A stretch of 64,000 nt of DNA, from NCBI RefSeq assembly GCF_000296465.1, contig NZ_JH815206.1, positions 234,200-298,199 of the forward strand, written 5' to 3'. Numbering within the stretch: position 1 is the stretch's first letter; each line of letters starts with the position of its first letter. Origin of the DNA: Barnesiella intestinihominis YIT 11860 (lineage in GTDB: Bacteria > Bacteroidota > Bacteroidia > Bacteroidales > Barnesiellaceae). This document shows, piece by piece, positions 8,334 to 27,397 of this stretch. The notes below the pieces were generated by a model that ran no database searches, was not told where the DNA came from, and worked only from the letters and a program-made list of their open reading frames with translations. The translations under genes and the position numbers were made by a program.

Positions 8334-8888
8334 ATGGACGATAGCGCTTTAACCCATCAGTTAAAACAGGGTAACCAGTTAGCTTTTACCATTCTTTATG
8401 ACACTTATTCAGAACAGGTGTATAGACTTGCGTTTAAATATTTGTGTAATAAAGAACTGGCAGAAGATGCTGTGCAGAATCTTTTCATGAAAGTTTGGAT
8501 TAAACGAACCTCTCTCGATGAGAGTCGCCCATTGAATCATTTTTTATTTACCGTTTTAAAAAACGATTTACTTACTATCCTTCGCGATCCCAAGAATAAT
8601 ATTTTTGTTTTGGACGATTGTTTGGAGTTATTGGAGCGTATAGACGGGGGCAACCAAGATGATGAGGATATGGATAAAGAGCAATTGGACTTGGTGCGCC
8701 ATGCTATCGAACAGTTGTCTCCTCAAAGGAGGAAGATTTTTTCTTTGAAAATTTCGGGAAAGTATTCTAACCAAGAAATTGCAGATAAGCTAAATCTTTC
8801 TGTCAATACAATAAAATTCCAGTATAGCCAGTCTCTGAAACAGATAAAGGAGATTGTTCGTAAGTGTGCTATTTCCCTTTTGATGTAA
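8334..8888 (+). CDS. ECF-type RNA polymerase sigma factor
   Basis: A 184-residue extracytoplasmic-function sigma factor with region 2 (residues 18-85; LYDTYSEQVYRLAFKYL, then AEDAVQNLFMKVW) and region 4 (residues 125-175; LSPQRRKIFSLKISGKYSNQEIADKL, a helix-turn-helix). Regions 1.1 and 3 are absent, as usual. It is followed by a FecR-type anti-sigma gene and an STN-SusC gene, the standard trans-envelope arrangement of Bacteroidales glycan loci. It should drive transcription of the locus starting near 9.9 kb. No clear -33/-7 promoter was found ahead of it. The 82-base gap to fecR contains a 10-bp AT-rich hairpin (8918-8927 with 8943-8952). Confidence 0.95.
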   Translation: MDDSALTHQLKQGNQLAFTILYDTYSEQVYRLAFKYLCNKELAEDAVQNLFMKVWIKRTSLDESRPLNHFLFTVLKNDLLTILRDPKNNIFVLDDCLELLERIDGGNQDDEDMDKEQLDLVRHAIEQLSPQRRKIFSLKISGKYSNQEIADKLNLSVNTIKFQYSQSLKQIKEIVRKCAISLLM

Positions 8889-8970
8889 TGCTTAAAATAA
8901 GTTAATGTAAGATCTGTATATAATACTTTTTGAAATTTATATAGTATTATATAATGAAAGCCAATGAAAC

Positions 8971-9912
8971 ATGCATTTTAGAAAACGACATCAGACCGAT
9001 TCTGAGATATTGAAATATGTATCCGGGCATATCGACAAAGATATAAACCGGCTGTTAAATGCCGAATCTTTGCCAATGGGAGGATGCGATGTGCCGGATT
9101 TCGATAAATTCGGCGTATATGAAAGTTTGGCGCAGAGAATAGGTCGAAGCGAAAGACGAAATGTCTGGACGGTTTGTAAATGGGCTTGTGCCATTGCATT
9201 GGTATTGTTGAATGTCGGATATTTGGCTTATCAGAATATCGATTTATCGAAGCCTGTCTATAAAGAGGTTTGTTCTTTGAAGGGAGAACGATTGGTCGTA
9301 TTGCTCGAAGATGGAACGCGAGTGTGGTTGAATGCAGACTCGAAGTTGGTTTATCCAGAGCAATTTGCGAAGGATAAAAGAGAAGTATCGTTAGTAGGCG
9401 AGGCTTATTTTGAAGTAAAGAAGGATATATCTAAACCGTTCATGGTACAGGCAGACGAAATGAATATCCGTGTAACGGGAACGAGTTTTAACGTATCGGG
9501 ATATCCTACGGATTCGGTGGTTACGACCACGTTGGACGAAGGGGGTATAGTGATAAGTTATCCGTATGCAGAAAAATCGGGAACGTATCAGATGGCTCCC
9601 GGCCAGACTGCAATTTATGAAAAAGGAAGTAGGCTTTGTAAAGTCATGAAGAACGAGTATTATAAAGATGCTTCTGTTTGGAAGGAAAATAAATTAATAT
9701 TCAGAAATGCTCCTTTGGAAGAGGTCTTGACTACATTGTCTCGGCAATTTGATGTTTCTTTTGATATCCGCAGTGAAAAGATAGCTGCGTTCACATATAA
9801 TTTCACCTGCAAGCTAAACAATTTGTCAGGTATTTTTGAAATGATGTCTGCCATTACCCCAATTAAGTTTAATGAAATATCGGAGAATGTATATGCTGTG
9901 AAAGAAAAATAA
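8971..9912 (+). CDS. FecR-type anti-sigma factor
   Basis: An inner-membrane regulator of 313 residues. A cytoplasmic N-terminal part (1-68) would hold the sigma factor, one membrane segment lies near 69-90 (ACAIALVLLNVGYLAY), and a periplasmic FecR domain spans about 97-200 (LEDGTRVWLNADSKLVYP, then GTSFNVSGYP). A C-terminal domain of the DUF4974 kind (about 235-313; APLEEVLTTLSRQFDVSFDI) probably contacts the STN domain of the next protein. ATG 8971 is the first start giving this frame. It forms one signalling module with the sigma factor and SusC. Confidence 0.95.
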   Translation: MHFRKRHQTDSEILKYVSGHIDKDINRLLNAESLPMGGCDVPDFDKFGVYESLAQRIGRSERRNVWTVCKWACAIALVLLNVGYLAYQNIDLSKPVYKEVCSLKGERLVVLLEDGTRVWLNADSKLVYPEQFAKDKREVSLVGEAYFEVKKDISKPFMVQADEMNIRVTGTSFNVSGYPTDSVVTTTLDEGGIVISYPYAEKSGTYQMAPGQTAIYEKGSRLCKVMKNEYYKDASVWKENKLIFRNAPLEEVLTTLSRQFDVSFDIRSEKIAAFTYNFTCKLNNLSGIFEMMSAITPIKFNEISENVYAVKEK

Positions 9913-9945
9913 TTAGTCTAATAACTTAACAAACACTCAAAATTT

Positions 9946-12900
9946 ATGCTGGAAAAATACGTTTTTCCATACATCAGAAAGTGGTGTGTGGTAGGAGGGC
10001 TTTGTCTTGCTTTTCCGTGGGTTGCTTATGCTCAGCAACAGAAAATCTCGTTAAACATTCAGAATGTTACATTGAAACAAGCGATGGAACAGATAAAGGA
10101 GCAAGCTGTTGTAAATGTGGCATATAGTAAGGAATTTGTAGACCCGAACAAGACCGTTTCCTTGAAGGTCGAAAATGTGAGTTTGCAGACGGCGCTGACC
10201 CAACTATTTAAGGGTACAGATGTCGGATTCCGTTTCTTGGATAATAGTGTTCTTTTATACAATCAAAAGGAACAAGACAGTTCGGGAGCTACATCGAAAG
10301 AGCAACAAATCGTATCGGTCAAAGGTACTGTCGTAGATCAAGTGACCGGCGAGCCTATTATCGGAGCGTCTGTTGCCGTAGAGGGATCATCGAAAGGAAC
10401 CAGTACCGATTTGGACGGTAAATATTCGTTAAACGCACCCGTGGGTAGTACTTTGAAATTTTCTTATGTCGGATATAAGGAAACGAAAAAAGAGGTATTG
10501 CAGGCCGGGGTGTTAGATGTTTCTCTCATGGAGAGTTCTGTTTCTTTGGACGATGTGGTGGTCGTCGGTTATGGCGTACAGAAGAAGGTGAACGTAACCG
10601 GGGCCGTATCTATGGTAAAAGGAGATGAATTGGAAAACCGTCCCGTCGCTAATGTCAGTGCGGGGTTACAAGGCTTATTGCCGGGTGTGAGCATTACGTC
10701 TTCATCGGGGCAGCCCGGAGCCGTGCCTTCGATAACGATTCGTGGTGTCAGTACCATAAATAGTAGTACCGCACCTCTTATATTGATTGACGGAGTTTCG
10801 GGTGGAGATTTGAATTTATTGAATCCCAACGATGTAGAGAGTGTGTCGGTTTTGAAGGATGCTGCATCTGCCGCTATTTACGGAGCTCGTGCGGCTAACG
10901 GGGTTATTTTGATTACAACCAAGCAGGGCAAACGAAAGGAGAAGGCTACATTGACCTATTCGGGATATGTGGGTATGCAAACACCTACCGCTTTGCCGGA
11001 ATTGGTAACAGGCCGGCAGTATATGGAGTTGTCTAACGAGGCAATGTCTGCCGCCGGTTTTTCCAGACCTTATGATGTGGATGCTTTTGAAAAATATGAT
11101 TCGGGAATGTATCCCAATGAATATTCGAACACAGATTGGGTGAATGAAATTTTTAAGAAACATGCGTTGCAAACGAGTCACTCGGTAAGTGTAAGAGGTG
11201 GAAGCGAGAAAAGCAGCTATTTTATGTCTTACGGTTATTTAGATCAAGATGGATTGGTCGTGGGTGATGCATTTAAAACAAAACGGCACAATGCGAGAAT
11301 CAATGTGAATACAGAGGTTTTCGATCGATTGAAAATAAACGGGAATGTCAGTTTTGTCGATTATTACCGTAATGCGTCCGGATTTTCGGGTACTGGAGGT
11401 GTATTTCGTTTAGCCCAACGTATGTCTCCGCTGTTACCGGTGAAATGGCAACAACAAAATGAGATGGGATTATGGGAAGACACCGAATATTGGTCCAGCG
11501 GGAGTATAAATAATCCTGTTTATGTAGCCAAAGAAGGTGGAGAGGAAAAGAGAAAATCTCGTACATTGAATACTATCGTGAGTGCGGATTTGCGAATAAT
11601 CGACGGTTTGAATTTAGGAGGGCAATATGCTGCGAACTATTATTTCAGAGAAACCGATAAGTTTACTCCTACGTTACCGGAATATTTTTCAGACGGGACT
11701 CCCGATCCTGCTAATAAAAATATGAGAAATTCGGTGAGCCAAGCACATCAAGATGCTTTGACTCAAACCTTACAGTTAACATTGAATTTTCAGAAGCAGA
11801 TCAATAAACATGAGATCGGGGCTTTGTTGGGATATTCGCAAGAGTGGTATAATTTCAGTAGTTTAAGCGCGAGTCGTAAGAAAATACCATTTGATGGCAT
11901 TTATGTGATCGATGCAGGGACCGAGGATATTACGAATAGCGGTACGAAGAGTTCTTGGGCTTTACGCTCTTATTTCGGCCGTGTGAATTATGCGTTTGAT
12001 GGAAAGTATTTGGTAGAAGCGAATATGCGTATCGATGGTACTTCTCGCTTCGCTAGGGATAATCGTTGGGGATATTTTCCATCTTTCTCGGCTGGTTGGA
12101 ATTTTTCCAGAGAAGAATTTATGCAGTTTGCAGAACCTGTGTTGAGTTCCGGTAAACTGAGGGCTTCTTGGGGTGAATTAGGAAACCAGAATGTGGGTAG
12201 CGATTATTATCCATATTTGACTCCTATTGATTCGGGAGAAAGTTATCCGATCGGAGGAAAACAGAATATCGGTTTTCAACAAAGTAAATTGGGAAATGCC
12301 AATATCAAGTGGGAAACGATAAGAATGTTGAATGTCGGTGTAGATTTGACTTTCTTTAATAATAGGTTGACCGCTTCTTTCGATTGGTTTAAGAAAGATA
12401 ATATCGATGCATTGGTGAAACCTGTTTATCCTACGGTCGTAGGAATCACCGGAACGGCTAATTTGCCTTATGAAAACATGGGTAAAATCGAAAATAAAGG
12501 TTGGGAGCTTGAAATCGGTTGGCGAGACCAGATTGGAGAAGTGAAATATAATTTGCTATTCAATCTTTCTGATGCCAAGAATAAAATTGTCGATTTAGGA
12601 ACGAGTGAACCTCGATTAACCAATAACATTCGTAGAGAAGGAGATCCTATCGACGCTTATTATGGTTATTTGACCGATGGTTTGGCACAGATTGATGACT
12701 TTGGCGGTGTCGATAGTAATGGAAAGTATATTAATCCTAAGTTCGCTATTCCAAAAGCGGCAGAAGCTATAACACAACCGGGAGATATTAAATATCGAGA
12801 TATTTCTGGACCCGGTGGAATTCCAGATGGAGAAATAGATGAATATGATAAGGTTGTATTTGGCGATCCGTATCCGCATTATTCCTATTCATTGAGAGGT

Positions 12901-13347
12901 CAGTTGCAATGGAGAGATTGGGATTTTAGTTTTTATTTCCAAGGAGTGGGGAAAGTAAATGGTTATCTGTCAGATGAAGCCCGTCACTGTTTTATCAACG
13001 ATTATTCTATTCCTAAGGTAGAACATTTGGATCGCTGGACTCCTAACAACCCCGATGCCACATATCCTAGACTGTATCAAGCTCAATCTCATAATTTATT
13101 ATTCAGTGATTATTGGAAAGAAGATGCTTCGTATTTGCGTTTGAAAAATGTACAATTGGGTTATTCTATTCCCAAAAAACTTCTTAATCGATGGAAAATA
13201 GAGGGGTTGCGATTGTATGCGTCGGCAGATAATTTACTGACATTCACTAAATATTTCGGTGCTTATGATCCGGAAGTACGGGAATCTTCGGGCGATGTTT
13301 ACCCCCAAGTAAAGACATACGTATTCGGTTTAGTTCTTTCATTTTAA
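9946..13347 (+). CDS. SusC-like TonB-dependent transporter with STN signalling domain
   Basis: A 1133-residue outer-membrane importer. In order: a signal peptide ending at AYAQ (near residue 30), an STN (secretin/TonB short N-terminal) domain at about 33-110, a carboxypeptidase-D-regulatory-like beta-sandwich at 125-195 (GTVVDQVTGEPIIGASV), the DDVVVVGYG segment typical of SusC, a plug domain to about 330 (LIDGVSGGDLNLLNPNDVES) and a 22-strand barrel ending in a final aromatic strand (VFGLVLSF). The STN domain marks it as a transducer that signals through FecR. It is followed by susD after 15 bases. The ligand cannot be read from sequence. Confidence 0.96.
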   Translation: MLEKYVFPYIRKWCVVGGLCLAFPWVAYAQQQKISLNIQNVTLKQAMEQIKEQAVVNVAYSKEFVDPNKTVSLKVENVSLQTALTQLFKGTDVGFRFLDNSVLLYNQKEQDSSGATSKEQQIVSVKGTVVDQVTGEPIIGASVAVEGSSKGTSTDLDGKYSLNAPVGSTLKFSYVGYKETKKEVLQAGVLDVSLMESSVSLDDVVVVGYGVQKKVNVTGAVSMVKGDELENRPVANVSAGLQGLLPGVSITSSSGQPGAVPSITIRGVSTINSSTAPLILIDGVSGGDLNLLNPNDVESVSVLKDAASAAIYGARAANGVILITTKQGKRKEKATLTYSGYVGMQTPTALPELVTGRQYMELSNEAMSAAGFSRPYDVDAFEKYDSGMYPNEYSNTDWVNEIFKKHALQTSHSVSVRGGSEKSSYFMSYGYLDQDGLVVGDAFKTKRHNARINVNTEVFDRLKINGNVSFVDYYRNASGFSGTGGVFRLAQRMSPLLPVKWQQQNEMGLWEDTEYWSSGSINNPVYVAKEGGEEKRKSRTLNTIVSADLRIIDGLNLGGQYAANYYFRETDKFTPTLPEYFSDGTPDPANKNMRNSVSQAHQDALTQTLQLTLNFQKQINKHEIGALLGYSQEWYNFSSLSASRKKIPFDGIYVIDAGTEDITNSGTKSSWALRSYFGRVNYAFDGKYLVEANMRIDGTSRFARDNRWGYFPSFSAGWNFSREEFMQFAEPVLSSGKLRASWGELGNQNVGSDYYPYLTPIDSGESYPIGGKQNIGFQQSKLGNANIKWETIRMLNVGVDLTFFNNRLTASFDWFKKDNIDALVKPVYPTVVGITGTANLPYENMGKIENKGWELEIGWRDQIGEVKYNLLFNLSDAKNKIVDLGTSEPRLTNNIRREGDPIDAYYGYLTDGLAQIDDFGGVDSNGKYINPKFAIPKAAEAITQPGDIKYRDISGPGGIPDGEIDEYDKVVFGDPYPHYSYSLRGQLQWRDWDFSFYFQGVGKVNGYLSDEARHCFINDYSIPKVEHLDRWTPNNPDATYPRLYQAQSHNLLFSDYWKEDASYLRLKNVQLGYSIPKKLLNRWKIEGLRLYASADNLLTFTKYFGAYDPEVRESSGDVYPQVKTYVFGLVLSF

Positions 13348-13362
13348 TAAATACCATTGCAT

Positions 13363-15096
13363 ATGAAAACGATTAAATATATTGCGGCTTTTTTGCCGTT
13401 GGCATCATTGTTGGTTTCATGTAACGATGATTTTTTAGACAGATATCCTCAGGATTCCGTGACTAATGAAACTTATTGGAAGACGGAGGAGCAGTTGCGC
13501 GCGGCATTGTATCCTTGTTATGAAACATTTGAATATGAGTTGTTGATTAAATGGGCAGAGTCTACGGCCGAAACTGTAATATGGGGTGATAAAAACAGCG
13601 GACTTTCAAAAGTATCGGGAGGGAAACATGCTTATACCGATGGGTTCCCCTTTACTTCGTATTGGAGATATTCTTACGGACATATTCACACTTGCAATAA
13701 TTTCCTAGATAATTACAATCGGGCCGAAATCGACCAAGATGTTAAAGATGTCTATGCCGCCGAGGTGAAGGTCATAAGGTCGTGGGTATATTTTATGTTG
13801 ACGACTTTTTTTGGAGATGTTCCCTGGATTAACCATGTTATTACGTCCGAAGGAGCTTATGGACCTCGTACTCCACGAAGTGAAGTTATCGATAGCTTAA
13901 TGACCGATTTGGATTGGGCTGCTTCGAAATTACCTCATGAAAGGCAAACGGGAGATAATGTAGGTCGTATAGACCGCTGGGGAGCTTTGGCGATGAAAGC
14001 ACGTATCGCCCTTCAAAACGAACGTTATGATATTGCTGCCAAAGCTGCCAAAGAGATTATAGACAATGGCCCCTACGATCTTTATGATTATGAAAAATTG
14101 TATCATCTCGAAGGAGATATAGAGAATAATCCAGATAATAACGAAGCAATTATTTCCAGTATCTATGTGAATGATATTCGCAATAATAACATGTCGAACG
14201 AGACTTGTTCGCCGGTGGATTTTATTCGATTTAATCCTACCAAAACGTTGGTCGATGCTTATTTATGTATCGATGGTATGCCAGCTAAGCCGGGATTGGA
14301 GTATTATAAACGTACAGATATAAAAACGTCACCTCTGTATAAGTATCCTGAGGAACATTATGCCGATTATTTCCAAAACAGGGATCCGAGAATGAGAATG
14401 ACGTTGTTTACTCCCGGTGATCAATGGGGTGGCGGTGACGATGGAGATGCCGAATATCGCCGTCCGAACGATATATTTCAGTTACCACGCTTCTCGTCGT
14501 TACAACCCGGCCGGAACGGAGCTAACGGGATAACCGGCTTTTATTTCAAAAAATACAATGAGATAAGTATTGCCGGAAATGCCAACAGGTCTCACACCAA
14601 TTTGAACGTAATTCGTTATCCAGAGGTTCTTTTGATTTATGCAGAAGCTCTTTATAAGATGAACGGGACATTGACCCAAACTGAAATCGATGAGACTATT
14701 AATCGTTTGAGAGATCGAGTGGGTATGCATCGAATGGATTTGAAGGAGCTGCAACAGTGGAATCTCGATTTGTGGACCGAAATAAAGAGAGAGCGACGTA
14801 TCGAGCTTTCGTTCGACGGTATGCGATATGCAGATATAATGCGTTGGAGAGAAGGTGAATTGCGTTTTGGTCGGGCTATTACAGGGCCTAGTCTAACCGT
14901 TTGTATGAACGATTTGGGCGCTAATCCTTATCCCGATACCGGAGTCGATGAATTCGGCGATGTGATTTACGAAAAATCGAGAGCAGAAGGAGGTCCCCGT
15001 TATTTCGATCCGGCTATGCATTATTTGTGGCCTGTGCCTTATGAGGAAAGAATGAAAAATCCTCTGTTGGGTCAAAATCCCGGTTGGCCGGAATAA
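13363..15096 (+). CDS. SusD/RagB-like outer-membrane binding lipoprotein
   Basis: A 577-residue lipoprotein partner that lids the SusC barrel and captures glycan. The signal peptide has a lipobox ending at a cysteine near residue 20 (LLVSCNDDFLD). The N-terminal SusD-like region (YPQDSVTNETYWKTEEQL) and the C-terminal RagB region (VIRYPEVLLIYAEALY, then ERRIELSFDGMRYADIMRW) are both recognisable. ATG 13363 is chosen over a TTG two codons earlier because it gives a clean signal peptide. A 14-bp hairpin follows 12 bases after the stop. Confidence 0.96.
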   Translation: MKTIKYIAAFLPLASLLVSCNDDFLDRYPQDSVTNETYWKTEEQLRAALYPCYETFEYELLIKWAESTAETVIWGDKNSGLSKVSGGKHAYTDGFPFTSYWRYSYGHIHTCNNFLDNYNRAEIDQDVKDVYAAEVKVIRSWVYFMLTTFFGDVPWINHVITSEGAYGPRTPRSEVIDSLMTDLDWAASKLPHERQTGDNVGRIDRWGALAMKARIALQNERYDIAAKAAKEIIDNGPYDLYDYEKLYHLEGDIENNPDNNEAIISSIYVNDIRNNNMSNETCSPVDFIRFNPTKTLVDAYLCIDGMPAKPGLEYYKRTDIKTSPLYKYPEEHYADYFQNRDPRMRMTLFTPGDQWGGGDDGDAEYRRPNDIFQLPRFSSLQPGRNGANGITGFYFKKYNEISIAGNANRSHTNLNVIRYPEVLLIYAEALYKMNGTLTQTEIDETINRLRDRVGMHRMDLKELQQWNLDLWTEIKRERRIELSFDGMRYADIMRWREGELRFGRAITGPSLTVCMNDLGANPYPDTGVDEFGDVIYEKSRAEGGPRYFDPAMHYLWPVPYEERMKNPLLGQNPGWPE

Positions 15097-15108
15097 GTTG
15101 AATTTCTA

Positions 15109-15140
15109 ATCCACACTATTAGAATCCTAATAGTGTGGAT
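15109..15140 (+). other. Intercistronic hairpin after susD
   Basis: Perfect 14-bp stem (15109-15122 with 15127-15140) and a 4-base loop, followed by ATTAATG without a T run. It looks like an RNA stabiliser or processing hairpin separating susCD from the enzyme genes rather than a strong terminator. Confidence 0.7.
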
Positions 15141-15167
15141 ATTAATGAACTATAAAATATGATTACG

Positions 15168-16022
15168 ATGAAACGTGTGTTTATATTGATGATGAGTATC
15201 AGTGCGGTTTTTATGGGTTGTAGTAAAGCCAATGAACCGCAAGGAGATGCCGGTTGGGGTGGTAACACTGAACCCAAAGAAAACCTGGTCGTGATGAGTT
15301 ATAACATAAAACACTGTGCACCCTATTATGGTGTATCGGGTGAAACAACAACCGCAGATGTGAATAACGTTGCGAATGTGATAAAAAGCAAAAAGCCAGA
15401 TGTAGTTTTGTTGCAAGAGGTAGATTATAAAACGACAAGAAGTTTGGGTGTGGATCAGGCTAAAGAATTGGCAGAATTGGCCGGTTATCCGTATTATTAT
15501 TTTTTCAAACAAAAAGATTTTCAGGGCGGGGCTTATGGTGCAGCTATCCTTTCTTCTTTTCAAATGAGCGAAATCGTAAATCATGATCTCCCGAAAGAGA
15601 TAGATGGACTGACTATTACGGGAAGTAACGTTTTGGGGACAGCCAAGATAAAGTTCAATGGAATCGATGTTTATTTGGCGGTAATCCATTTATCCGTTAC
15701 TCAGGCGGAAAGGGATAGACAATTCCCCGTTATGATGGAAGAACTTTCTTCTAAAAGCGACTTTCCTATTATTTTAGGAGGGGACTTTAATTCGAAACCG
15801 GATAATTCGATTATCGGCAAGTTGGAAGCTGCCGGATTTGTCAGGACGAATACAGATCCGAAAAATTTTACAATTCCTTCTAATGCGCCCAATCGGGAAA
15901 TAGACTATATCGCTTACAGGCCTTTGGAATATTTTAATGTTGTTTCTCATACTGTCGTTACGGGGGTAAATGCATCCGATCATCTCCCTATTATTTCTGT
16001 GTTGAAAATTTCAAAACCGTAG
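15168..16022 (+). CDS. EEP-fold phosphodiesterase/phosphatase, lipoprotein (first of three)
   Basis: A 284-residue member of the endonuclease/exonuclease/phosphatase superfamily. These metal-dependent enzymes cut phosphodiesters in nucleic acids, sphingomyelin and inositol lipids. The active-site set is complete: N46 (SYNIKH), E84 (LLQEVDY), D206 and N208 (GGDFNSKP), D271 and H272 (SDHLP). The signal peptide has a lipobox with a cysteine near residue 18 (AVFMGC), so it should be membrane-anchored, probably outward. ATG 15159 is an equally open start three codons earlier. It is followed by a paralogue after 3 bases. Substrate unknown; in this setting a glycoconjugate phosphodiester is more likely than DNA, but that is inference. 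Confidence 0.9.
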   Translation: MKRVFILMMSISAVFMGCSKANEPQGDAGWGGNTEPKENLVVMSYNIKHCAPYYGVSGETTTADVNNVANVIKSKKPDVVLLQEVDYKTTRSLGVDQAKELAELAGYPYYYFFKQKDFQGGAYGAAILSSFQMSEIVNHDLPKEIDGLTITGSNVLGTAKIKFNGIDVYLAVIHLSVTQAERDRQFPVMMEELSSKSDFPIILGGDFNSKPDNSIIGKLEAAGFVRTNTDPKNFTIPSNAPNREIDYIAYRPLEYFNVVSHTVVTGVNASDHLPIISVLKISKP

Positions 16023-16025
16023 AAA

Positions 16026-16808
16026 ATGAAAGCATTTAAATATCTTTTGATTGTCGTGTTTTTATACCAGTTTGGAAACGTATATGCACAAGACACTTTG
16101 AGAATAAAGGTAATGACCTATAATATTCGTTTTGGAGAATTGGCATCGTTGGAGGAACTGGCTTCGCATATAAAGTCTTTCAATCTCGATTTCGTTGCGT
16201 TGCAGGAAATAGATTGTAAAACCGATAGAGGAGAGAGAGCTCCGCATCAAATCGGGCGTGACTATATTTCGGAATTGGCATATTTTACAAAGATGTTTGG
16301 CGTGTATGGGAAAACAATCGATTATAAGGGTGGATATTATGGTATAGGAATCCTTTCCCGATACCCTTATATCGATACGAAGAAAACTTTTTTGCCGTGG
16401 CCCAATAAAGCGCATGAACGTAGAGCTCTGTTAGAGGGTCTGTTTGAAATAGGCGAAGATACGATTTGTTTTGCATCGACACATTTGGATTATCAGTTGC
16501 CAAAGACGAGAGAAGCACAGACCGCTTTTATTACCGAGTATTTCAATGATTATCGATACCCTGTGGTTTTAGGAGGAGATTTTAATACAGCTCCTTCGTC
16601 AAAGGAAATTAAGTATAATATGTTGGAAAATTGGTTTTTGGCAACCGATTACGATTTTACTGTTCCCGCTTGGAACCCCAAGAGAAAGATAGATTATATT
16701 TTCGCCAGACCTAAACAGGGGTGGAAAATTGTGAGAACTCAAACCGTTCAGTCTGTTTTATCCGACCACTTGCCTATTGTGACAGAATTGGAGTATGTAA
16801 AATATTAA
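16026..16808 (+). CDS. EEP-fold phosphodiesterase/phosphatase, secreted (second of three)
   Basis: A 260-residue paralogue of its neighbours with a type I signal peptide (cleavage near YAQ, residues 20-22), so probably free in the periplasm. Active-site residues are intact: N33 (TYNIRF), E61 (LQEIDC), D185 and N187 (GGDFNTAP), D247 and H248 (SDHLP). It begins 4 bases after the first EEP gene and ends 9 bases before the third. The middle region (GGYYGIGILSRYP) is shared in form with the third copy. No accessory domain is present. Confidence 0.9.
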   Translation: MKAFKYLLIVVFLYQFGNVYAQDTLRIKVMTYNIRFGELASLEELASHIKSFNLDFVALQEIDCKTDRGERAPHQIGRDYISELAYFTKMFGVYGKTIDYKGGYYGIGILSRYPYIDTKKTFLPWPNKAHERRALLEGLFEIGEDTICFASTHLDYQLPKTREAQTAFITEYFNDYRYPVVLGGDFNTAPSSKEIKYNMLENWFLATDYDFTVPAWNPKRKIDYIFARPKQGWKIVRTQTVQSVLSDHLPIVTELEYVKY

Positions 16809-19406: not shown

Positions 19407-19490
19407 AAAATCGTGTCGTGAGTTGCTTCTGTTCTTACAAGAGATATTATGGAATATCGGGTCTGTAAGTGGTTCATGACACGATTTTTA
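19407..19490 (+). terminator. Branched hairpin, possible terminator or attenuator inside the locus
   Basis: An 11-bp closing stem (19407-19417 with 19478-19488) ending in TTTTTA, enclosing smaller stems (19434-19439 with 19464-19469; 19443-19448 with 19453-19458). It lies between the beta-helix gene and the first GH89 gene. No promoter was seen downstream, so partial read-through is likely. Confidence 0.6.
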
Positions 19491-19524
19491 TTCGGTAATA
19501 GGTTTAATTAAAAAAAATAATTCC

Positions 19525-21693
19525 ATGAAATACCACATATCAAGTAGTTTGTTTGTGCTTTTTTGTATCGTACTGTGTGCTTGTAACTCGTCTTCGGTCG
19601 AGAAAGACGGCATAATACAACCCGCTTTTGATTTAATCGAGCGGCAAATCGGGGAGAGAGCGGCCGGTATACAGTTGGAGGAGATAGCTCCTGAGAATGG
19701 AAAAGAGACTTTCGAGGTAGAGGCTAAAAATGGTATTCTCACGTTGAGAGGCAGCAGCTCGGTGGCTATTTGTTATGCGTTCCATACTTATTTACGAGAG
19801 GCTTGCTCGGCGATGAAAACATGGAGCGGGGAACATATGGAGTTGCCTGAGACTTGGCCCGATTTTGTTTTGAAAGAGCAGACTACGCCGTATGAGTACC
19901 GATATTTCTTGAATGTGTGTACCTTTGGTTATACAACTCCGTATTGGGATTGGGAACGCTGGGAAAAGGAAATCGACTGGATGGCTCTGCGGGGAGTCAA
20001 TATGCCGTTGGCTACCGTAGCGAGCGAGGCGATTGCCGAGCGAGTGTGGCTGAAAATGGGATTGAAAGAAGAGGATATACGGGCTTTTTTTACCGGCCCG
20101 GCACATTTGCCATGGCATCGTATGGGGAATCTGAATGGTTGGGACGGCCCGCTTACGAACGGTTGGCAGAAGGAGCAGATAAAACTGCAACACAAGATAT
20201 TGAATCGAATGCGAGAACTGGGTATGGATCCTATTGCTCCTGCATTTGCCGGCTTTGTACCTACTGCGTTTGCCGAACGACACCCCGAAATACAATTCAA
20301 ACATTTGGAATGGGGCGGATTCGATGAAAAATACAACGCTTATGTATTGCCTCCCGAGACTCCCTACTTTAAGGAGATAGGAAAACTTTTTATCGAAGAG
20401 TGGGAAAAAGAGTTTGGAAAGAATACTTACTATCTGTCGGATAGTTTCAATGAGATGAAATTGCCTGTCGCCGAGGGTGACGATGACGGGAAACACAAGT
20501 TATTGGCACAATACGGCGAATCTATATATCATTCGATTGCGGCCGGCAATCCCGATGCTGTTTGGGTAACGCAAGGCTGGACTTTCGGATATCAACACGA
20601 TTTTTGGGACAAGGCTAGCTTGCAGGCTTTGCTGAGTAGGGTTCCCGATGATAAAATGATTATTATCGATTTGGGAAACGATTATCCGAAATGGGTTTGG
20701 GGTACTGAACAAACATGGAAAAATCATGATGGTTTTTATGGGAAAAAATGGATATTCAGTTATGTGCCGAACTTTGGGGGAAAGACTCCGATGACGGGCG
20801 ATTTGCAGATGTATGCGACCTCTTCGGCCGAAGCTTTGCATAGTGCGAATGCCGGTAATTTGGTCGGGTTCGGTTCTGCTCCCGAAGGGCTTGAAAATAA
20901 CGAGGTCGTTTATGAATTGTTGGCCGATATGGGTTGGACGGCCGATTCGATAGATTTGGATTCTTGGCTGCCCGTTTATTGTAAGGCTCGTTACGGCGGT
21001 TGCCCGGCGGCTATGGATAGTGCTTGGCAGCGGTTCAAGGAAACAGCTTATAGCTCGTTGTATTCTTACCCCCGGTTTACTTGGCAAACGGTTGTCCCGG
21101 ATACCCGCCGAATCAGTAAGTTGGACGTGAGCGATTCGTTCTTGCAAGGTGTCGAACTGTTTTTGTCGTGTGCCGATAGTTTGGAATCGTCGCCGCTGTA
21201 TGTGAATGATGCCATTGAATATGCTTCTTATTATTTGGCTGCCAAAGCTGATGATTGTTATAAACGGGCTTTGAAAGAAGATTCTTTGGGGAACCGGGTG
21301 GCGGCCATGCAGCAGTTGGATCGTTCGGTCGAGATTCTTTTAGATGTGGATAAGTTGTTGGCCTCGCATCCGTTGTATCGACTGGAAGAGTGGGTGGATA
21401 TGGCTCGCGATTGGGGGAAAACGGATTTGGAGAAAGATGCCTATGAGGCTAATGCCAAGCGGTTGATTACGACATGGGGTGGTTTCCAAGAAGATTATGC
21501 CGCCCGGTTTTGGAGCGGGTTGATAAAGGATTATTATATTCCCCGTATGAAGTTGTATTTTTCGGAACAGCGGGCCGATTTGGACCGTTGGGAGGAAAAT
21601 TGGATAAAAGCTCCGTGGCACAATACCTCTACGTCGTTCGAAGATCCGTTACAAAGCGCGATTAAATTGGTCGAACGATATAAAGGGGAATAG
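19525..21693 (+). CDS. Alpha-N-acetylglucosaminidase, GH89 (first copy)
   Basis: A 722-residue NAGLU-like enzyme removing terminal alpha-linked GlcNAc. The signal peptide has a lipobox with Cys20 (VLCAC), so it is lipid-anchored. A small N-terminal domain (to about 110) precedes the (beta/alpha)8 catalytic domain (RYFLNVCTFGYTTPYWDW, MALRGVNMPLA, GPAHLPWHRMGN) and an all-helical C-terminal domain. The two catalytic glutamates of the family fit E310 (FNEMK) and E454 (APEGLEN), close to the human pair E316/E446. No carbohydrate-binding modules are present. It shares architecture with the second copy at 25217 but is clearly diverged, suggesting different linkages or locations. Confidence 0.94.
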   Translation: MKYHISSSLFVLFCIVLCACNSSSVEKDGIIQPAFDLIERQIGERAAGIQLEEIAPENGKETFEVEAKNGILTLRGSSSVAICYAFHTYLREACSAMKTWSGEHMELPETWPDFVLKEQTTPYEYRYFLNVCTFGYTTPYWDWERWEKEIDWMALRGVNMPLATVASEAIAERVWLKMGLKEEDIRAFFTGPAHLPWHRMGNLNGWDGPLTNGWQKEQIKLQHKILNRMRELGMDPIAPAFAGFVPTAFAERHPEIQFKHLEWGGFDEKYNAYVLPPETPYFKEIGKLFIEEWEKEFGKNTYYLSDSFNEMKLPVAEGDDDGKHKLLAQYGESIYHSIAAGNPDAVWVTQGWTFGYQHDFWDKASLQALLSRVPDDKMIIIDLGNDYPKWVWGTEQTWKNHDGFYGKKWIFSYVPNFGGKTPMTGDLQMYATSSAEALHSANAGNLVGFGSAPEGLENNEVVYELLADMGWTADSIDLDSWLPVYCKARYGGCPAAMDSAWQRFKETAYSSLYSYPRFTWQTVVPDTRRISKLDVSDSFLQGVELFLSCADSLESSPLYVNDAIEYASYYLAAKADDCYKRALKEDSLGNRVAAMQQLDRSVEILLDVDKLLASHPLYRLEEWVDMARDWGKTDLEKDAYEANAKRLITTWGGFQEDYAARFWSGLIKDYYIPRMKLYFSEQRADLDRWEENWIKAPWHNTSTSFEDPLQSAIKLVERYKGE

Positions 21694-21735
21694 GTCTTAT
21701 TTTTATTAACTTTGGAATGTTTTGGAGCGAGAGTG

Positions 21736-22881
21736 ATGAAAAGGGTAATTTTGGCTTTTGATTCTTTCAAAGGATGTGCGAGTTCGCAGGAGATCGCAGC
21801 CTCTGCGCGGCAGGGGATTACCGACGTGTTTCCCGAATGTGCGGTGGTGGTAGTGCCTGTGGCCGATGGGGGTGAAGGTACGGTCGAGGCGATTTGCTCG
21901 AATATGTCCGTCGAGCGGGTATCGTGCCGTGTCCACGATCCTCTTATGAATCCGATGGAAGCGGCATACGGAATTACTTCTAATGGATCGACCGCTATAT
22001 TGGAAATGGCAGCTGCAAGCGGTTTGCCTTTGATTCCGCAAGAAAAACGAAATCCTTTGCTCACGACTACATGGGGAACCGGTGAGATGATTGCCGATGC
22101 GTTGCAGCGGGGGTGTCGTCGCATTGTCATGGGTATCGGTGGCAGCGCCACTAACGACGCAGGTATCGGTTTGTTGGCGGCGTTGGGTTATCGTTTTTTG
22201 GACGAGCGGGGCGAGGAGCTTCCTCCTGTTGGCGAAAGTTTGGGAAAGATTGCCCGGGTGGACGGTTCTTCGGCTAACAAATTGTTATGTGAAACTTCTT
22301 TTACGATAGCTTGCGATGTAAATAATCCTTTTTACGGTAGTCGCGGAGCTGCCGCTGTTTACGCTCCCCAAAAGGGTGCTTCTCCCGATGAAGTCGATTT
22401 TTTGGAAAAGGGAATGATTCATTATGCGCAAGTGATAAAGGAGACGAGGCAGATGGATATTTCGGAAATTCCGGGAGCCGGTGCGGCCGGAGGTTTGGGT
22501 GGCGGCGTGTTGCCATTCTTGAATGCCGAGTTACAATCGGGGATTGATATTGTTTTGGATATGCTCCGTTTCAGGGAGACGATACAGGGAGCCGATTTGA
22601 TTTTTACCGGTGAAGGGAAATTGGACAAACAGACCGGTATGGGCAAAGCATTGGGCGGAATTTTGCATTATGCGAAAGAGGAGGCTGTCCCGGTAATTGC
22701 CATAGGCGGCTGTGTGGAGGCGTGCGAAATATTGAACGAGATGGGATTTGCCAGTATTTTTTCCATACAGACGGCTCCGGTTTCTTTGCAGGAGGCAATG
22801 GATCGGGATTTTGCTTTGAAGAATATAAGGCAGGTTGTCACACAGATTATGCGAACCATTCAAATAGGGACACATGGATAG
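21736..22881 (+). CDS. Glycerate kinase
   Basis: A 381-residue kinase of the GckA/GarK-type glycerate kinase family, phosphorylating glycerate to phosphoglycerate in the cytoplasm. The N-terminus ILAFDSFKGCASSQEIA is the family signature, followed by PVADGGEGTVEAI and GGSATNDAGIGLLAALG. ATG 21736 matches the family start, although the frame is open to 21712. It overlaps the GntP gene by 8 bases, giving a transport-plus-kinase pair. Its presence in the middle of a glycan locus is unusual and suggests that glycerate or a related acid is released from, or accompanies, the substrate. Confidence 0.93.
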   Translation: MKRVILAFDSFKGCASSQEIAASARQGITDVFPECAVVVVPVADGGEGTVEAICSNMSVERVSCRVHDPLMNPMEAAYGITSNGSTAILEMAAASGLPLIPQEKRNPLLTTTWGTGEMIADALQRGCRRIVMGIGGSATNDAGIGLLAALGYRFLDERGEELPPVGESLGKIARVDGSSANKLLCETSFTIACDVNNPFYGSRGAAAVYAPQKGASPDEVDFLEKGMIHYAQVIKETRQMDISEIPGAGAAGGLGGGVLPFLNAELQSGIDIVLDMLRFRETIQGADLIFTGEGKLDKQTGMGKALGGILHYAKEEAVPVIAIGGCVEACEILNEMGFASIFSIQTAPVSLQEAMDRDFALKNIRQVVTQIMRTIQIGTHG

Positions 22882-24127
22882 TACGGTAGGTGCATTAATC
22901 GGATTGCTGGTGTCGATATTCTTGATAATCAAGAAAGTTTCACCGGCTTATAGCCTTATTTTGGGCGCTTTGATCGGTGGTTTGGCCGGAGGCTTCTCCT
23001 TGGAAGAAGTCGTTGTGTCGATGACCGAGGGCGTGAAAGATGTCTCTTCGGCTGTGTTGCGTATCCTGACGGCGGGGGTATTGTCGGGTGTTCTGATAAA
23101 AACAGGGGCTGCAATGACTATTTCAAATGCGATAATCAGGTTTTGGGGTGAGAAACGTGTCTATTTGGCTTTGGCGTTTGCCACGATGTTGTTGTGTGCG
23201 GTAGGCGTTTTTATCGATGTAGCGGTGATAACGGTAGCTCCGGTTGCATTGTCTATCGGTCGGAGGTTGGGGATTCCTACTCCGCAACTGCTGCTTGTGA
23301 TGATAGGCGGAGGGAAAAGCGGAAATATTATTTCGCCCAATCCCAACACGATTATTGCGGCCGAGAATTTTGGAGCCGATTTGCCCTCGGTTATGTTTGC
23401 CAATATTATACCGGCCATAATAGGTTTGTTGTTTACCGTGTTCGTGATAGCTCGTTTTTTCCCGGTGAAACCTTGTAAGGTCCATACCGATGAGGAGGAG
23501 ATGGGAAACGACGATGGATTACCTTCGTTATGGAGTAGTTTGGTGGCTCCCGTCGTGACTATTTTCCTGTTGGCTTTACGACCTTTGTGTGGTATCACCG
23601 TAGACCCTTTGGTAGCTCTTCCGGCAGGTGGATTGTGCGGATTGATATGTATGCGGCAATGGAAAAATGCATTGCCGAGTATCGAATTCGGTTTACAGAA
23701 AATGTCGGTGATAGCCGTGTTGTTGATCGGTACAGGGACTATTGCCGGCGTGATTAAAGATTCGACTTTGAAAGATTATATCTTGGCCATGTTGGATCAT
23801 GTGAGTATGGGAAAGGATATGATTGCTCCTATTTCCGGTATTTTAATGTCTGCCGCTACGGCTTCGACTACGGCGGGAGCTACGTTGGCTTCTGCCTCTT
23901 TTGCCGATACGATTTTAGCAGTGGGCGTTTCGTCGATATGGGGTGCGGCGATGGTTAATGCCGGGTCTACCGTACTGGATCATTTGCCTCACGGGTCGTT
24001 TTTCCATGCTACGGGAGGGGTTTGCGATTTGACGTTTAGAGACCGGTTGAAACTGATTCCTTATGAAACACTTATCGGAGCCGTGTTAACTCTATTCTCG
24101 ATTATAATGTATTGGATATGTCGTTGA
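22874..24127 (+). CDS. GntP family permease
   Basis: An inner-membrane proton symporter of 417 residues with about 12 membrane segments, in the gluconate/glycerate permease family. Family features include the glycine-rich GGGKSGNIISPNPNTIIAA segment and the C-terminal STVLDHLPHGSFFHATGGV. It overlaps glycerate kinase by 8 bases and the next gene by 10 bases, so translation is probably coupled. By association it would bring glycerate (or another hydroxy acid) into the cell. The exact substrate of GntP members cannot be read from sequence. Confidence 0.93.
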   Translation: MDSTVGALIGLLVSIFLIIKKVSPAYSLILGALIGGLAGGFSLEEVVVSMTEGVKDVSSAVLRILTAGVLSGVLIKTGAAMTISNAIIRFWGEKRVYLALAFATMLLCAVGVFIDVAVITVAPVALSIGRRLGIPTPQLLLVMIGGGKSGNIISPNPNTIIAAENFGADLPSVMFANIIPAIIGLLFTVFVIARFFPVKPCKVHTDEEEMGNDDGLPSLWSSLVAPVVTIFLLALRPLCGITVDPLVALPAGGLCGLICMRQWKNALPSIEFGLQKMSVIAVLLIGTGTIAGVIKDSTLKDYILAMLDHVSMGKDMIAPISGILMSAATASTTAGATLASASFADTILAVGVSSIWGAAMVNAGSTVLDHLPHGSFFHATGGVCDLTFRDRLKLIPYETLIGAVLTLFSIIMYWICR

Positions 24128-25212
24128 CGAGAACTTCTAAACGGTTGGTTTCATTGGACGTGTTGAGGGGAATTACCGTTTGCGGCATGATTCTCGTCAA
24201 CAATGCAGGGGCGTGCGGATATGCATATGCTCCTTTGAAACATGCGAAATGGGACGGATTTACACCGGCCGATCTTGTTTTTCCTGCCTTCATGTTTATC
24301 ATGGGAGTCTCTATTTATTTGTCGCTCAATAAATCGAATTTCGATTGGCGGATTTCGATTGCCCGAATCCTGCGGCGCACGGTATTGATTTTCATGTCGG
24401 GTGTCGCCCTCAAATGGATTTTGGCGTTTATTGCTACCGGGGAATACAATACGCTTGAAAATTTACGGATTATGGGTGTATTGCAGCGACTGGGAATCTG
24501 TTACGGGATTGTAGCTCTTTTGGCCGTGACTGTTCGTCATCGTTTGTTCCCGACGATTATCGCCGTTTTGCTTGTCGGGTATTATTTGTTGCAACTTTTC
24601 GGGAACGGATTTGAGAAATGTGCCGGGAATATTGTCTCTATGGTCGATTATGCCGTGTTGGGAAAATCTCATATGTATTTGGGCGGAGCTCAATTCGTCG
24701 ACCCCGAAGGGGTATTGAGTACGATTCCGGCAATAGCTCAGGTGATGATAGGATTTCTTTGCGGAAAAGTTATCGTCGGGGAAAAAGAGATACGTTCACA
24801 AATCGTGAAGTTGGCGGTTTGGGGTACATCGATGTTCGTTATCGGGTATTTGTGGAGCTATGCCGCTCCTTTGAACAAACGGCTGTGGTCTCCGAGTTTC
24901 GTTTTGGTAACTTGCGGTATCACCTCTCTGATTTTTGCGACACTCATTTATATTATCGACGATTCGAAGAGGACGCGCTGGTCGTTTCCGTTCTTGGTAG
25001 TAGGCGTAAATCCGTTGTCGATTTATATATTCAGCGAAATTGCCGGAGGGTTATTCCGTAAACTCCAATGGACGACAATATCGTTCGAAGGAATATGGCA
25101 GCCTCTTTTCGGGAATTGCGGAGGCAGTTTGGCCTATGCGCTCGCCTTTCTTATGTTTAATTGGCTCATTGCCTTTTTCTTGTACAAAAAGCATATTTAT
25201 ATCAAATTATAG
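24118..25212 (+). CDS. HGSNAT-like transmembrane acetyltransferase (DUF5009 type)
   Basis: A 364-residue membrane protein with about 10 membrane segments. It is related to heparan-alpha-glucosaminide N-acetyltransferase, which moves acetyl from cytoplasmic acetyl-CoA to terminal alpha-glucosamine on the far side of the membrane. Signatures are SLDVLRGITVCGMILVNN near residues 12-29, then HAKWDGFTPADLVFPAFMF with H42 in the place of the family active-site histidine, IMGVLQRLGICYG, and GVLSTIPAIAQ. ATG 24118 is used because it fits the family N-terminus; it overlaps gntP by 10 bases. Four bases separate it from the second GH89 gene. Bacterial members may act on other acceptors, so N-acetylation of glucosamine is inference. 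Confidence 0.88.
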   Translation: MSLTRTSKRLVSLDVLRGITVCGMILVNNAGACGYAYAPLKHAKWDGFTPADLVFPAFMFIMGVSIYLSLNKSNFDWRISIARILRRTVLIFMSGVALKWILAFIATGEYNTLENLRIMGVLQRLGICYGIVALLAVTVRHRLFPTIIAVLLVGYYLLQLFGNGFEKCAGNIVSMVDYAVLGKSHMYLGGAQFVDPEGVLSTIPAIAQVMIGFLCGKVIVGEKEIRSQIVKLAVWGTSMFVIGYLWSYAAPLNKRLWSPSFVLVTCGITSLIFATLIYIIDDSKRTRWSFPFLVVGVNPLSIYIFSEIAGGLFRKLQWTTISFEGIWQPLFGNCGGSLAYALAFLMFNWLIAFFLYKKHIYIKL

Positions 25213-25216
25213 AAAG

Positions 25217-27397
25217 ATGAAAAAACTATTTTTTATTGCTTCGTTTTTTATGCTATTGGGAATGACGGCTTGTTCCTCGAAGGATCGCGATGTGTTGGCC
25301 GTGGAACAACTTACTCACCGTTTAATCCCCCAATATGCCGATCGATTCGTGTTCGAGATAGTTCCTGATGAGGATAGGGATTACTATTCGTTGGAAAGTA
25401 AGGACGGAAAAATCCACATTAGCGGGAATAACGCTAATTCGATGGCTGCCGGATTAAATTATTATTTGAAATATTATTGTCTGACGACTGTATCGTGGTA
25501 TGCCGATATTCCGGTCGAAATGCCCGATGTGTTACCTATGGTGGAAAAACCGGTAGTCGTAGAAGCGAAAGTGGATAATCGCTTTTTCTTGAATTATTGT
25601 ACTTACGGGTATTCCATGCCTTTTTGGAAATGGAAGGATTGGGAGCGTTTTATCGATTGGATGGCGTTGAACGGAGTGAATATGCCATTGGCTATAACCG
25701 GCCAAGAGATGGTGTGGTATAAAGTGTGGAAAAAAATAGGGCTGACCGATGAAGAGATTCGTTCTTATTTTACGGGCCCGGTTTATTTGCCGTGGCATCG
25801 CATGGCGAATATCGATGGCTGGAACGGGCCGTTACCCATGCAATGGCTGGAATCTCAGGCCGAGTTGCAGAAAAAGATTTTGGCTCGTGAGCGTGAATTG
25901 AACATGACGCCGGTATTGCCCGCTTTTGCAGGTCATGTGCCGGCTGCCTTGAAACGGATTCACCCCGATGCCAATATTCAATATTTGGGGAAATGGGCGG
26001 GTTTCGGCGATTCGTATCGCTGTCATTTCTTGAATCCCGAAGAACCGCTTTTTGCAGAAATTCAAAAGAGTTTCTTGGAAGAACAGGAAAAGATGTTCGG
26101 GACAGACCATATTTATGGTGTGGATCCTTTTAACGAGGTGGATCCGCCGAGCTGGGAGCCCGAATATCTGGCACAGGTATCTTCGGATATGTATAAATCG
26201 TTGGCTGCTGCCGACCCCGATGCCGTGTGGTTGCAAATGACATGGATGTTTTATCATGATCGAAAATTGTGGACAGCACCTCGGGTGAAAGCTCTGTTGA
26301 CCGGGGTTCCGTCCGATAAATTGGTTTTGTTGGATTATCATTGTGAAAATGTAGAGCTGTGGAAAAGTACGGAGAAATTTCATGGACAGCCTTATATCTG
26401 GTGTTATTTAGGAAATTTCGGAGGTAATACCACGTTGACCGGAAATGTAAAGGAGAGCGGTGACAGGCTCGATAACGCTTTGATAAACGGAGGAGACAAC
26501 TTAAAAGGTATAGGTTCTACATTGGAAGGACTGGATATCAATCAGTTCCCTTATGAATATATCTTTGAGAAAGCGTGGACGATAGATGTGAATGGACAGG
26601 ATTGGGTGGAGCGTTTGGCGGATAGGCACGTAGGAGCCGTTTCGGAATCGGCACGCGAGGCTTGGCAGATATTGTTTGACGATGTTTTTGTACAAGTGCC
26701 CCGTACATTAGGTATTTTGCCCGGATATCGGCCGAAATTGGGGGATAACTATAATAAACGGACCAGTAACGAGTATGATAACGCTACATTGCTGCGGGTG
26801 TGGGAGCTTTTATTGGAAGTTCCGTCTTGCGACAGAGATGCATTCGAGATAGATGTGATTATGACAGGTCGTCAACTCTTGGGCAATTATTTTTTGGACG
26901 TGAAAAAAGAATTTGACGGTTTTTATAAGAAACGGAATGTTCCCGGGTTGAAAGAAAAGGCTTCTGAAATGAGAGAGATACTGTCCGATTTGGAATTGTT
27001 GAATTCTTTCCACAACCGGGCATCGTTGGATAAATGGATTGAAGATGCCCGCAGTTTGGGCGATACCGACGAATTGAAAAATTATTATGAGAAAAATGCT
27101 CGTAATTTAATAACTACATGGGGTGGTAGTTTGAACGATTATGCGAGTCGTACATGGGCCGGTCTTCTGAACGATTATTATGCCAGACGATGGGAAATTT
27201 ATTTTGATGCTGTGATCGGTGCGGCGGAGAAAGGAATAGAGTTGGATAAAGATGAATTGAAGAGCCGGCTTGCGACTTTTGAACAAGAGTGGGTAGAGAG
27301 TACGACACCTGTCTGTATCGAGCGGAATGGTACATTGCTCGATACTTCTCGTCGTTTGTTGGAGAAATACGGGCCGAGGATTGAGAAATCTCTCTAA
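25217..27397 (+). CDS. Alpha-N-acetylglucosaminidase, GH89 (second copy)
   Basis: A 726-residue NAGLU-like enzyme. The signal peptide has a lipobox ending in cysteine near residue 17 (LLGMTAC). The catalytic barrel carries NYCTYGYSMPFWKWKDW, MALNGVNMPLAITGQE and GPVYLPWHRMAN; the catalytic glutamates fit E307 (DPFNEVDPP) and E437 (STLEGLD). The all-helical C-terminal domain follows. The reading frame is open 59 codons further upstream inside the acetyltransferase gene, but ATG 25217 gives a proper signal peptide. Its placement 4 bases after the HGSNAT-like gene pairs the acetylation and cleavage steps known from lysosomal heparan sulfate degradation. It is the last gene of the locus; a strong terminator follows. 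Confidence 0.95.
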   Translation: MKKLFFIASFFMLLGMTACSSKDRDVLAVEQLTHRLIPQYADRFVFEIVPDEDRDYYSLESKDGKIHISGNNANSMAAGLNYYLKYYCLTTVSWYADIPVEMPDVLPMVEKPVVVEAKVDNRFFLNYCTYGYSMPFWKWKDWERFIDWMALNGVNMPLAITGQEMVWYKVWKKIGLTDEEIRSYFTGPVYLPWHRMANIDGWNGPLPMQWLESQAELQKKILARERELNMTPVLPAFAGHVPAALKRIHPDANIQYLGKWAGFGDSYRCHFLNPEEPLFAEIQKSFLEEQEKMFGTDHIYGVDPFNEVDPPSWEPEYLAQVSSDMYKSLAAADPDAVWLQMTWMFYHDRKLWTAPRVKALLTGVPSDKLVLLDYHCENVELWKSTEKFHGQPYIWCYLGNFGGNTTLTGNVKESGDRLDNALINGGDNLKGIGSTLEGLDINQFPYEYIFEKAWTIDVNGQDWVERLADRHVGAVSESAREAWQILFDDVFVQVPRTLGILPGYRPKLGDNYNKRTSNEYDNATLLRVWELLLEVPSCDRDAFEIDVIMTGRQLLGNYFLDVKKEFDGFYKKRNVPGLKEKASEMREILSDLELLNSFHNRASLDKWIEDARSLGDTDELKNYYEKNARNLITTWGGSLNDYASRTWAGLLNDYYARRWEIYFDAVIGAAEKGIELDKDELKSRLATFEQEWVESTTPVCIERNGTLLDTSRRLLEKYGPRIEKSL

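Follow-up and report, generated by a model that had tools for sequence, protein, structure and literature searches.

Gene content of the locus

The window analysed in this work is a stretch of 64,000 nucleotides from Barnesiella intestinihominis YIT 11860, and its subject is a row of 13 genes, all in one direction (+) and separated by small gaps, at positions 8334-27397 (Table 1). All coordinates are positions of the window, and protein families were assigned with Pfam, NCBIfam and TIGR profiles against their curated cut-offs. A sequence-only reading of the same DNA had described twelve co-directional genes; the shared direction was correct, the number of genes is 13, and all the families it named were confirmed by Pfam and NCBIfam profiles at their places in the row. 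The adjacent SusC and SusD genes, the degradative enzymes and the linked regulator together make up a SusCD-type polysaccharide utilization locus, and an ECF sigma factor, FecR and an STN-bearing receptor in one row constitute a cell-surface signalling module. In architecture and control module the locus is thus like known Bacteroidota loci with ECF/FecR/STN-SusC, whereas its degradative set, composed of EEP enzymes, two GH89 proteins, an acetyltransferase and glycerate utilization, is different. No characterised locus with this enzyme set was found in the literature searched, a search that most subscription papers lay outside of.

Table 1. Features of the locus with their window coordinates and the basis of each assignment.
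Feature	Position	Strand	Basis
ECF sigma factor	8334-8888	+	Pfam Sigma70_r2/r4_2; NCBIfam Sig70_bacteroi1 125.5 bits, slightly below cut-off 126.4
FecR-type anti-sigma factor	8971-9912	+	Pfam FecR and FecR_C
SusC-type TonB-dependent transporter with N-terminal STN signalling domain	9946-13347	+	Pfam STN, CarbopepD_reg_2, Plug; TIGR04056 993 bits
SusD-type surface glycan-binding lipoprotein	13357-15096, likely ATG 13363	+	Pfam SusD_RagB, SusD-like_3
EEP1, Exo_endo_phos, lipoprotein-like start; proposed phosphodiesterase	15159-16022	+	Pfam; EEP motifs; EEP fold in model
EEP2, Exo_endo_phos with signal peptide	16026-16808	+	Pfam; EEP motifs
EEP3, Exo_endo_phos with type IX secretion system (T9SS) C-terminal sorting tail	16818-17840	+	TIGR04183 31.9 bits, above cut-off 23; Pfam Por_Secre_tail 23.9, below 27
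Secreted right-handed beta-helix protein, signal peptide	17862-19385	+	Pfam Beta_helix; weak T9SS tail below cut-off
Intergenic hairpin in the beta-helix/GH89a gap	19407-19488	+	Fold z-score and consensus of 7 Barnesiella genomes
GH89a, alpha-N-acetylglucosaminidase family, lipoprotein-like start	19525-21693	+	Pfam NAGLU_N/NAGLU/NAGLU_C; Glu310 and Glu454
Glycerate kinase (GlyK)	21712-22881, likely ATG 21736	+	Pfam PF02595 470 bits; TIGR00045
GntP-family permease, proposed glycerate importer	22874-24127	+	Pfam GntP_permease
HGSNAT/NagX-like transmembrane acetyltransferase	24112-25212, likely ATG 24118	+	Pfam HGSNAT_cat
GH89b, alpha-N-acetylglucosaminidase family, lipoprotein-like start	25217-27397	+	Pfam; both Glu kept
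Terminator-like hairpin and T run ending the locus	27420-27471	+	z -4.9; sequence

The signal peptides and lipoprotein-like starts of EEP1, EEP2, the beta-helix protein, GH89a and GH89b were read by eye. The listed open reading frame (ORF) of GH89b begins with a TTG at 25040, which is probably wrong; the start in Table 1 is likelier, as it gives a lipoprotein-like signal. The sorting tail of EEP3 fits the presence of the T9SS gene sprA in the window's genome (3.44 Mb). The beta-helix protein may serve in binding or presentation.

All three EEP proteins of the window carry an Exo_endo_phos domain and retain the four motifs known for the EEP family, and the motifs of EEP1 are kept in all 10 loci compared. 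The model predicted for EEP1 from a 7-row alignment (pLDDT 76) has the EEP fold; its best fold matches include TDP2 and nocturnin, and neutral sphingomyelinase shares the fold. As a guide to the substrate the fold was not decisive and was dropped.

Both GH89 proteins have the three NAGLU domains and the conserved glutamate pair. Glu310 and Glu454 of GH89a align with the pair of 4xwh, which we take to be human NAGLU, and the region also aligns with 2vc9, presumably the GH89 enzyme of Clostridium perfringens. This glutamate pair is catalytic in GH89, as is the conserved histidine in HGSNAT. The window proteins are thus like 4xwh and 2vc9 in fold family, judged by sequence, and in the glutamate pair, but the aglycone proposed below is GlcNAc (N-acetylglucosamine) or glycerate rather than the galactose of mucin or a uronic acid. 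A phylogenetic tree places GH89a and GH89b in separate clades with full support, and every one of the 10 loci contributes one member to each, as would be expected if two different bonds are cut.

The acetyltransferase belongs to the HGSNAT family: HGSNAT_cat scores above its cut-off, the protein matches HGSNAT structures with an E value of 7e-27, and the His44 motif is kept. It also resembles NagX, a transmembrane glucosamine N-acetyltransferase, over nearly the full length, but reaches only 163.7 bits against the 480-bit cut-off of the equivalog profile NF046061; hence we call it NagX-like and not NagX.

Conservation and variation of the gene row

With the EEP1 profile, the locus was found in seven of the nine genomes of the family examined, all of the genus Barnesiella, and the gene order was seen in all seven (the window's own genome, G001, G002 and G005-G008). 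Among Bacteroides, 4 of 158 genomes matched this profile at E < 1e-80, namely G488 (B. nordii), G091 and G494 (B. pyogenes) and G498, and in all four the gene order was read, either directly or from the named record that matches. The profile itself includes B. nordii and B. pyogenes DSM 20611 as rows, so their matches are by construction. A further 19 Bacteroides genomes matched weakly (E from 1e-30 to 1e-49). The locus is rare: when the six best candidates per genome were scored, E < 1e-100 was reached in a sample of 395 genomes of the class only by the window's own genome and G091, and in a sample of 393 genomes of the order only by the window's own genome, G001, G005 and G091, G002 and G006-G008 not being listed in the latter. 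The gene set is therefore kept beyond this strain, and the order conserved across two families, together with a fusion of EEP2 to GH89a in B. pyogenes, bears out the earlier view that the genes form one functional locus. A row kept in other species is not a chance assembly.

The content of the row varies. The B. pyogenes locus is minimal and consists of ECF, FecR, SusC, SusD, EEP1, the EEP2-GH89a fusion, GlyK, GntP and GH89b. In B. nordii an alkaline phosphatase gene is inserted between the beta-helix and GH89a genes, and EEP3 is missing from the locus. G498 has the full row, with an EEP3-like protein of 875 residues that also contains SBBP repeats. As a side observation, the B. nordii glycerate kinase appears as two overlapping ORFs in the draft record (L086 17049-18190), for which sequencing error and decay are indistinguishable.

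Two types of front half were distinguished within Barnesiella. In G001 and G005-G008 the front half (SusC to beta-helix) is 48-76% identical to that of the window and the back half (GH89a to GH89b) 76-94%; the front half of these five contains a GH127-like gene (four near-complete matches and one remnant). The second front type is that of the window and G002, whose SusC, SusD and EEP1 proteins are 92, 94 and 94% identical. For the same three proteins the window is 77, 83 and 71% identical to B. nordii, and 73, 75-76 and 54-58% identical to the five congeners. Since the front of the window is nearer to that of B. nordii than to that of its congeners, the uptake and EEP part seems to have been exchanged as a cassette, and such an exchange would fit a varying decoration of one polymer. 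Several rows of the identity table were not used, namely G007 GH89a at 34% and EEP3 of B. nordii and B. pyogenes, all artefacts of a cut at the locus end or of a paralogue, and G001 EEP2 (a cut piece); the intact G007 GH89a is 91% identical to that of the window.

Proposed substrate and pathway

The enzyme set makes a phosphodiester-linked substrate with alpha-linked glucosamine (GlcN) or GlcNAc likely, as the sequence-only reading had proposed. That reading also considered intact heparan sulfate and mucin a poor fit, and we agree: Pfam identified no sulfatase or polysaccharide lyase among the 13 genes, nor is there an endo-glycosidase, so the row does not qualify as a heparan sulfate locus and both intact polymers were rejected as poor fits. 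The GlyK and GntP genes, which the earlier reading had listed without using them, point to a polymer that contains glycerate. The pair lies within the row in all 10 loci compared, though the acetyltransferase, EEP3 and the beta-helix protein come and go; its constant company with EEP and GH89 enzymes calls for a polymer with alpha-GlcNAc, phosphodiesters and glycerate. The kinase of the locus is the sole PF02595 gene found in the window's genome. A role of GntP as a glycerate importer is supported by G380, a genome of another family, in which a stretch of 173 residues 75% identical to the locus GntP adjoins a glycerate kinase with no GH89 nearby.

The pair could, alternatively, be a passenger on an alpha-GlcNAc locus and thus uninformative about the substrate. 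GntP-GlyK pairs do occur elsewhere without an adjoining GH89, and relatives that lack the locus keep a glycerate kinase. A PF02595-type kinase was found in 41 of the 395 genomes of the class, and GH89 adjoins in 2 of the 30 such loci that were read (the window's own and that of G091), so it is not a usual neighbour. We nevertheless regard a passenger role as quite unlikely, given that the pair is constant in a row from which other genes drop out; this explanation overlaps with those discussed below, and the odds need not sum to one.

A known polymer with these components is PS-III, the lipoteichoic acid of Clostridioides difficile. Its published repeat is [6)-aGlcNAc-(1-3)-[P-6]-aGlcNAc-(1-2)-D-GroA] (PMC5270738; PMC6972965). 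Another description gives two GlcNAc residues in alpha(1-3) linkage, joined to the next pair by 6-P-6, with C1 of the proximal residue bearing glyceric acid, and reports that GlcN makes up about 15% of the distal residue (PMC10642750). The polymer is anchored by a triglucosyl lipid (diacylglycerol) (PMC5270738; PMC11898633), occurs in all strains examined, and elicits antibodies that cross-react with other clostridia (PMC5270738), so that commensal clostridia may be its usual source. For every main bond or component of the repeat the locus contains a gene family that suits it: the phosphodiester, the two alpha-GlcNAc bonds, GlcN and D-glycerate. This is a match of gene families only. There is no glycosidase besides the two GH89 among the 13 genes, as expected if the repeat holds GlcNAc and GlcN alone.

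From these results, a hypothesis on the function of the locus may be put forward: it probably serves the utilization of a phosphodiester polymer built from D-glycerate and alpha-GlcNAc, the latter present in part as alpha-GlcN, and the likeliest such polymer is PS-III, the lipoteichoic acid of C. difficile and its clostridial relatives. The substrate and all catalytic steps are inferred. SusC and SusD would bind the polymer and import its fragments, and surface and periplasmic EEPs would cut the GlcNAc-6-P-6-GlcNAc bridges. The leftover phosphate would be removed by a phosphatase or perhaps by an EEP itself, since the EEP fold includes phosphatases. The HGSNAT-like protein would N-acetylate the exposed terminal alpha-GlcN on the periplasmic side with cytoplasmic acetyl-CoA, after which one GH89 would cut alphaGlcNAc-(1-3)-GlcNAc and the other alphaGlcNAc-(1-2)-D-glycerate. 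GntP would import the glycerate, and glycerate kinase would feed it into glycolysis.

The partial GlcN content reported for PS-III would explain the acetyltransferase. The mechanism of GH89 needs the N-acetyl group, and a terminal alpha-GlcN would block the enzyme; in the lysosome, HGSNAT acetylates terminal GlcN before NAGLU acts in the breakdown of heparan sulfate. A membrane acetyltransferase drawing on cytoplasmic acetyl-CoA would solve the problem here as HGSNAT does for NAGLU. Both systems thus combine a membrane acetyltransferase with a GH89, proposed here to act in sequence on terminal alpha-GlcN; unlike the lysosomal pathway, the locus has no sulfatase, lyase or glucuronidase among its 13 genes and is joined to EEPs and glycerate use. 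Paralogues of the acetyltransferase have neighbours that support an amino-sugar role of this family. In another genome (L083) a NagX-like paralogue directly adjoins a GH20 hexosaminidase, and in the window's own genome one (L080 4749-12698, G000:C1) lies one gene from the exo-muramidase NamZ, near an MFS transporter and beside a BadF-type ATPase, which suggests re-acetylation of GlcN during peptidoglycan salvage.

A number of observations weigh against lipoteichoic acid. GH89 enzymes are not known to accept a glycerate aglycone. Apart from the EEPs, no recognisable phosphatase was present in 9 of the 10 loci, the search being confined to the loci, and none of the 13 genes would account for the triglucosyl-diacylglycerol anchor or for esters of D-alanine. 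In B. pyogenes the acetyltransferase is absent from the locus. The GH127-like gene and the beta-helix protein fall outside the proposed pathway. The QE.D motif was not found in the four full-length EEP2 proteins of the front type other than the window's, nor the GDFN motif in EEP3 of G498; not every EEP copy need therefore be active. A glycerate kinase is present in all nine genomes of the genus, including two without the locus (G003 and G004, where it lies elsewhere; G005 has both), and was hence rejected as a locus marker. Finally, EEP and GH89 genes occur together without glycerate genes in a second locus of the window's own genome, beside GH20, GH3 and GH92, and in a distant member of the class (G169, L120 2384-13297), where EEP1 and two GH89 lie beside GH92, PL8 and GH88. 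The substrate of these two loci is probably a different one, a candidate in the case of G169 being a uronic-acid-containing phosphoglycan such as plant sphingolipid head groups. The EEP-GH89 pair alone thus does not name lipoteichoic acid, and it is glycerate that carries the argument.

Another phosphorylated glycan that bears glycerate, for instance a capsule or O-antigen that combines alpha-GlcNAc with (phospho)glyceric acid, would be degraded by the same enzyme logic. Phosphodiester-linked alditols, glyceric acid among them, are described for some E. coli O-antigens (PMC9912281). In G003 (L127 9724-17549) the genes clustered with the glycerate kinase encode an alkaline phosphatase, a calcineurin-like phosphoesterase, an NAGPA phosphodiester glycosidase and an amidohydrolase, and G004 (L128 3870-10856) has a similar cluster, judged by size and similarity only; both genomes lack the locus, and the clusters perhaps serve another phosphorylated glycerate source. 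Such O-antigens normally hold further sugars, yet the two GH89 stand alone as glycosidases, and we consider this explanation unlikely. Poly-glycerolphosphate teichoic acid was rejected as a candidate, since it would give glycerol phosphate and not glycerate.

The suggestion of "GPI-like or teichoic-acid-like" material in the sequence-only reading is supported in kind for its second half, because the glycerate pair fits a lipoteichoic acid of the C. difficile type, and is not supported for glycosylphosphatidylinositol (GPI). Alpha-GlcN or alpha-GlcNAc and a phosphodiester do occur together in GPI and in plant glycosyl inositol phosphorylceramides, the EEP fold is common to neutral sphingomyelinase, EEP1 and EEP2 give weak PGAP2IP-like Pfam matches below the cut-off, and the G169 locus joins EEP and GH89 to GH92, PL8 and GH88. 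Neither offers a source of glycerate, however, and genes for a mannosidase, for uronic acids or for inositol are missing from the 13; both head groups were rejected and appear very improbable as substrates. The literature searched yielded nothing relevant on the use of plant inositol phosphoceramides by Bacteroides.

Slightly less probable still is that the EEPs are nucleases for extracellular DNA and are only by chance the neighbours of a module for alpha-GlcNAc (mucin or heparan). All three have weak exodeoxyribonuclease III matches in NCBIfam, below the curated cut-off, the sequence matches of EEP3 in the PDB are AP (apurinic/apyrimidinic) endonucleases, and TDP2 and nocturnin are among the best folds for EEP1. 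Nuclease activity would, however, leave the glycerate genes unexplained and sits poorly with the fusion of EEP2 to GH89a in B. pyogenes, the alkaline phosphatase inside the B. nordii locus, the gene order kept across two families and the absence of a nucleoside uptake gene among the 13.

If the lipoteichoic acid assignment is correct, the target of this glycan locus would be a lipoteichoic acid of Gram-positive bacteria, with a polymer of the bacterial envelope as food, and the antigen cut by its enzymes would be one that is under study for vaccines against clostridia. The assignment would also give a substrate to the EEP enzymes of such loci and provide a bacterial parallel to the acetylate-then-hydrolyse step of the lysosome. 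We see about an even chance that Barnesiella and some Bacteroides, as common gut commensals, carry a dedicated locus for eating the lipoteichoic acid of C. difficile and other clostridia by means of phosphodiesterases and, after re-acetylation at the membrane, two bond-specific GH89 enzymes, which would be a concrete metabolic link between these genera and gut clostridia. Synthetic PS-III oligosaccharides have already been made (PMC8154330; PMC6972965), so that the assignment is directly testable.

RNA features and related loci

The whole row is likely to be read as one transcript. It ends in a stable hairpin at 27420-27462 (z -4.9) followed by a T run, and its sole long gap, the 139 bases between the beta-helix and GH89a genes, folds with a z-score of -2.9 as a whole. 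The gap hairpin is kept in the seven Barnesiella genomes. Its consensus has 19 pairs, and at 5 of these one or more of the sequences differ in both partners. A separate hairpin precedes GH89a in B. nordii, and the short gap of G498 folds weakly. The Barnesiella hairpin sits where the variable front half meets the conserved back half; it may be an attenuator or a processing site that sets the ratio of the two and partially separates them at the RNA level.

Scans of the window gave 55 sigma-70-like sites against 45.5 (standard deviation 6.3) in shuffled sequences, and 18 terminator-like sites against 18.1 (standard deviation 3.9), with neither described hairpin among the latter. A TTTG/TANNTTTG pattern had no match upstream of the sigma factor gene in the window scan; three of its eight window matches lie in the locus, one over the likely GlyK start and two inside GntP.

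The second locus of the window's own genome, mentioned above, lies outside the window (G000:C4:478000-510000; L076 1-20000, L077 1-12001) and comprises SusCD and ECF/FecR-like genes, two EEP-like genes, of which one encodes a T9SS tail, and a third GH89 along with two GH20 and a GH3; a GH92 is divergent. Another EEP locus recurs in Bacteroidales (L078, L134, L135 and L136) and contains SusCD, DUF3823, GH130 and EEP genes that surround the gene of an NHL protein; an MFS transporter is also present wherever the stretch extends far enough. The L078 version has an alkaline phosphatase and two GH130 genes. Similar TTTGCTTCT...TATCTTTG promoter-like sites were seen near both ends of the window, at 63822-63925 and 2927-2958, and the window as a whole has 8 matches to this pattern, where chance would give 1.66.

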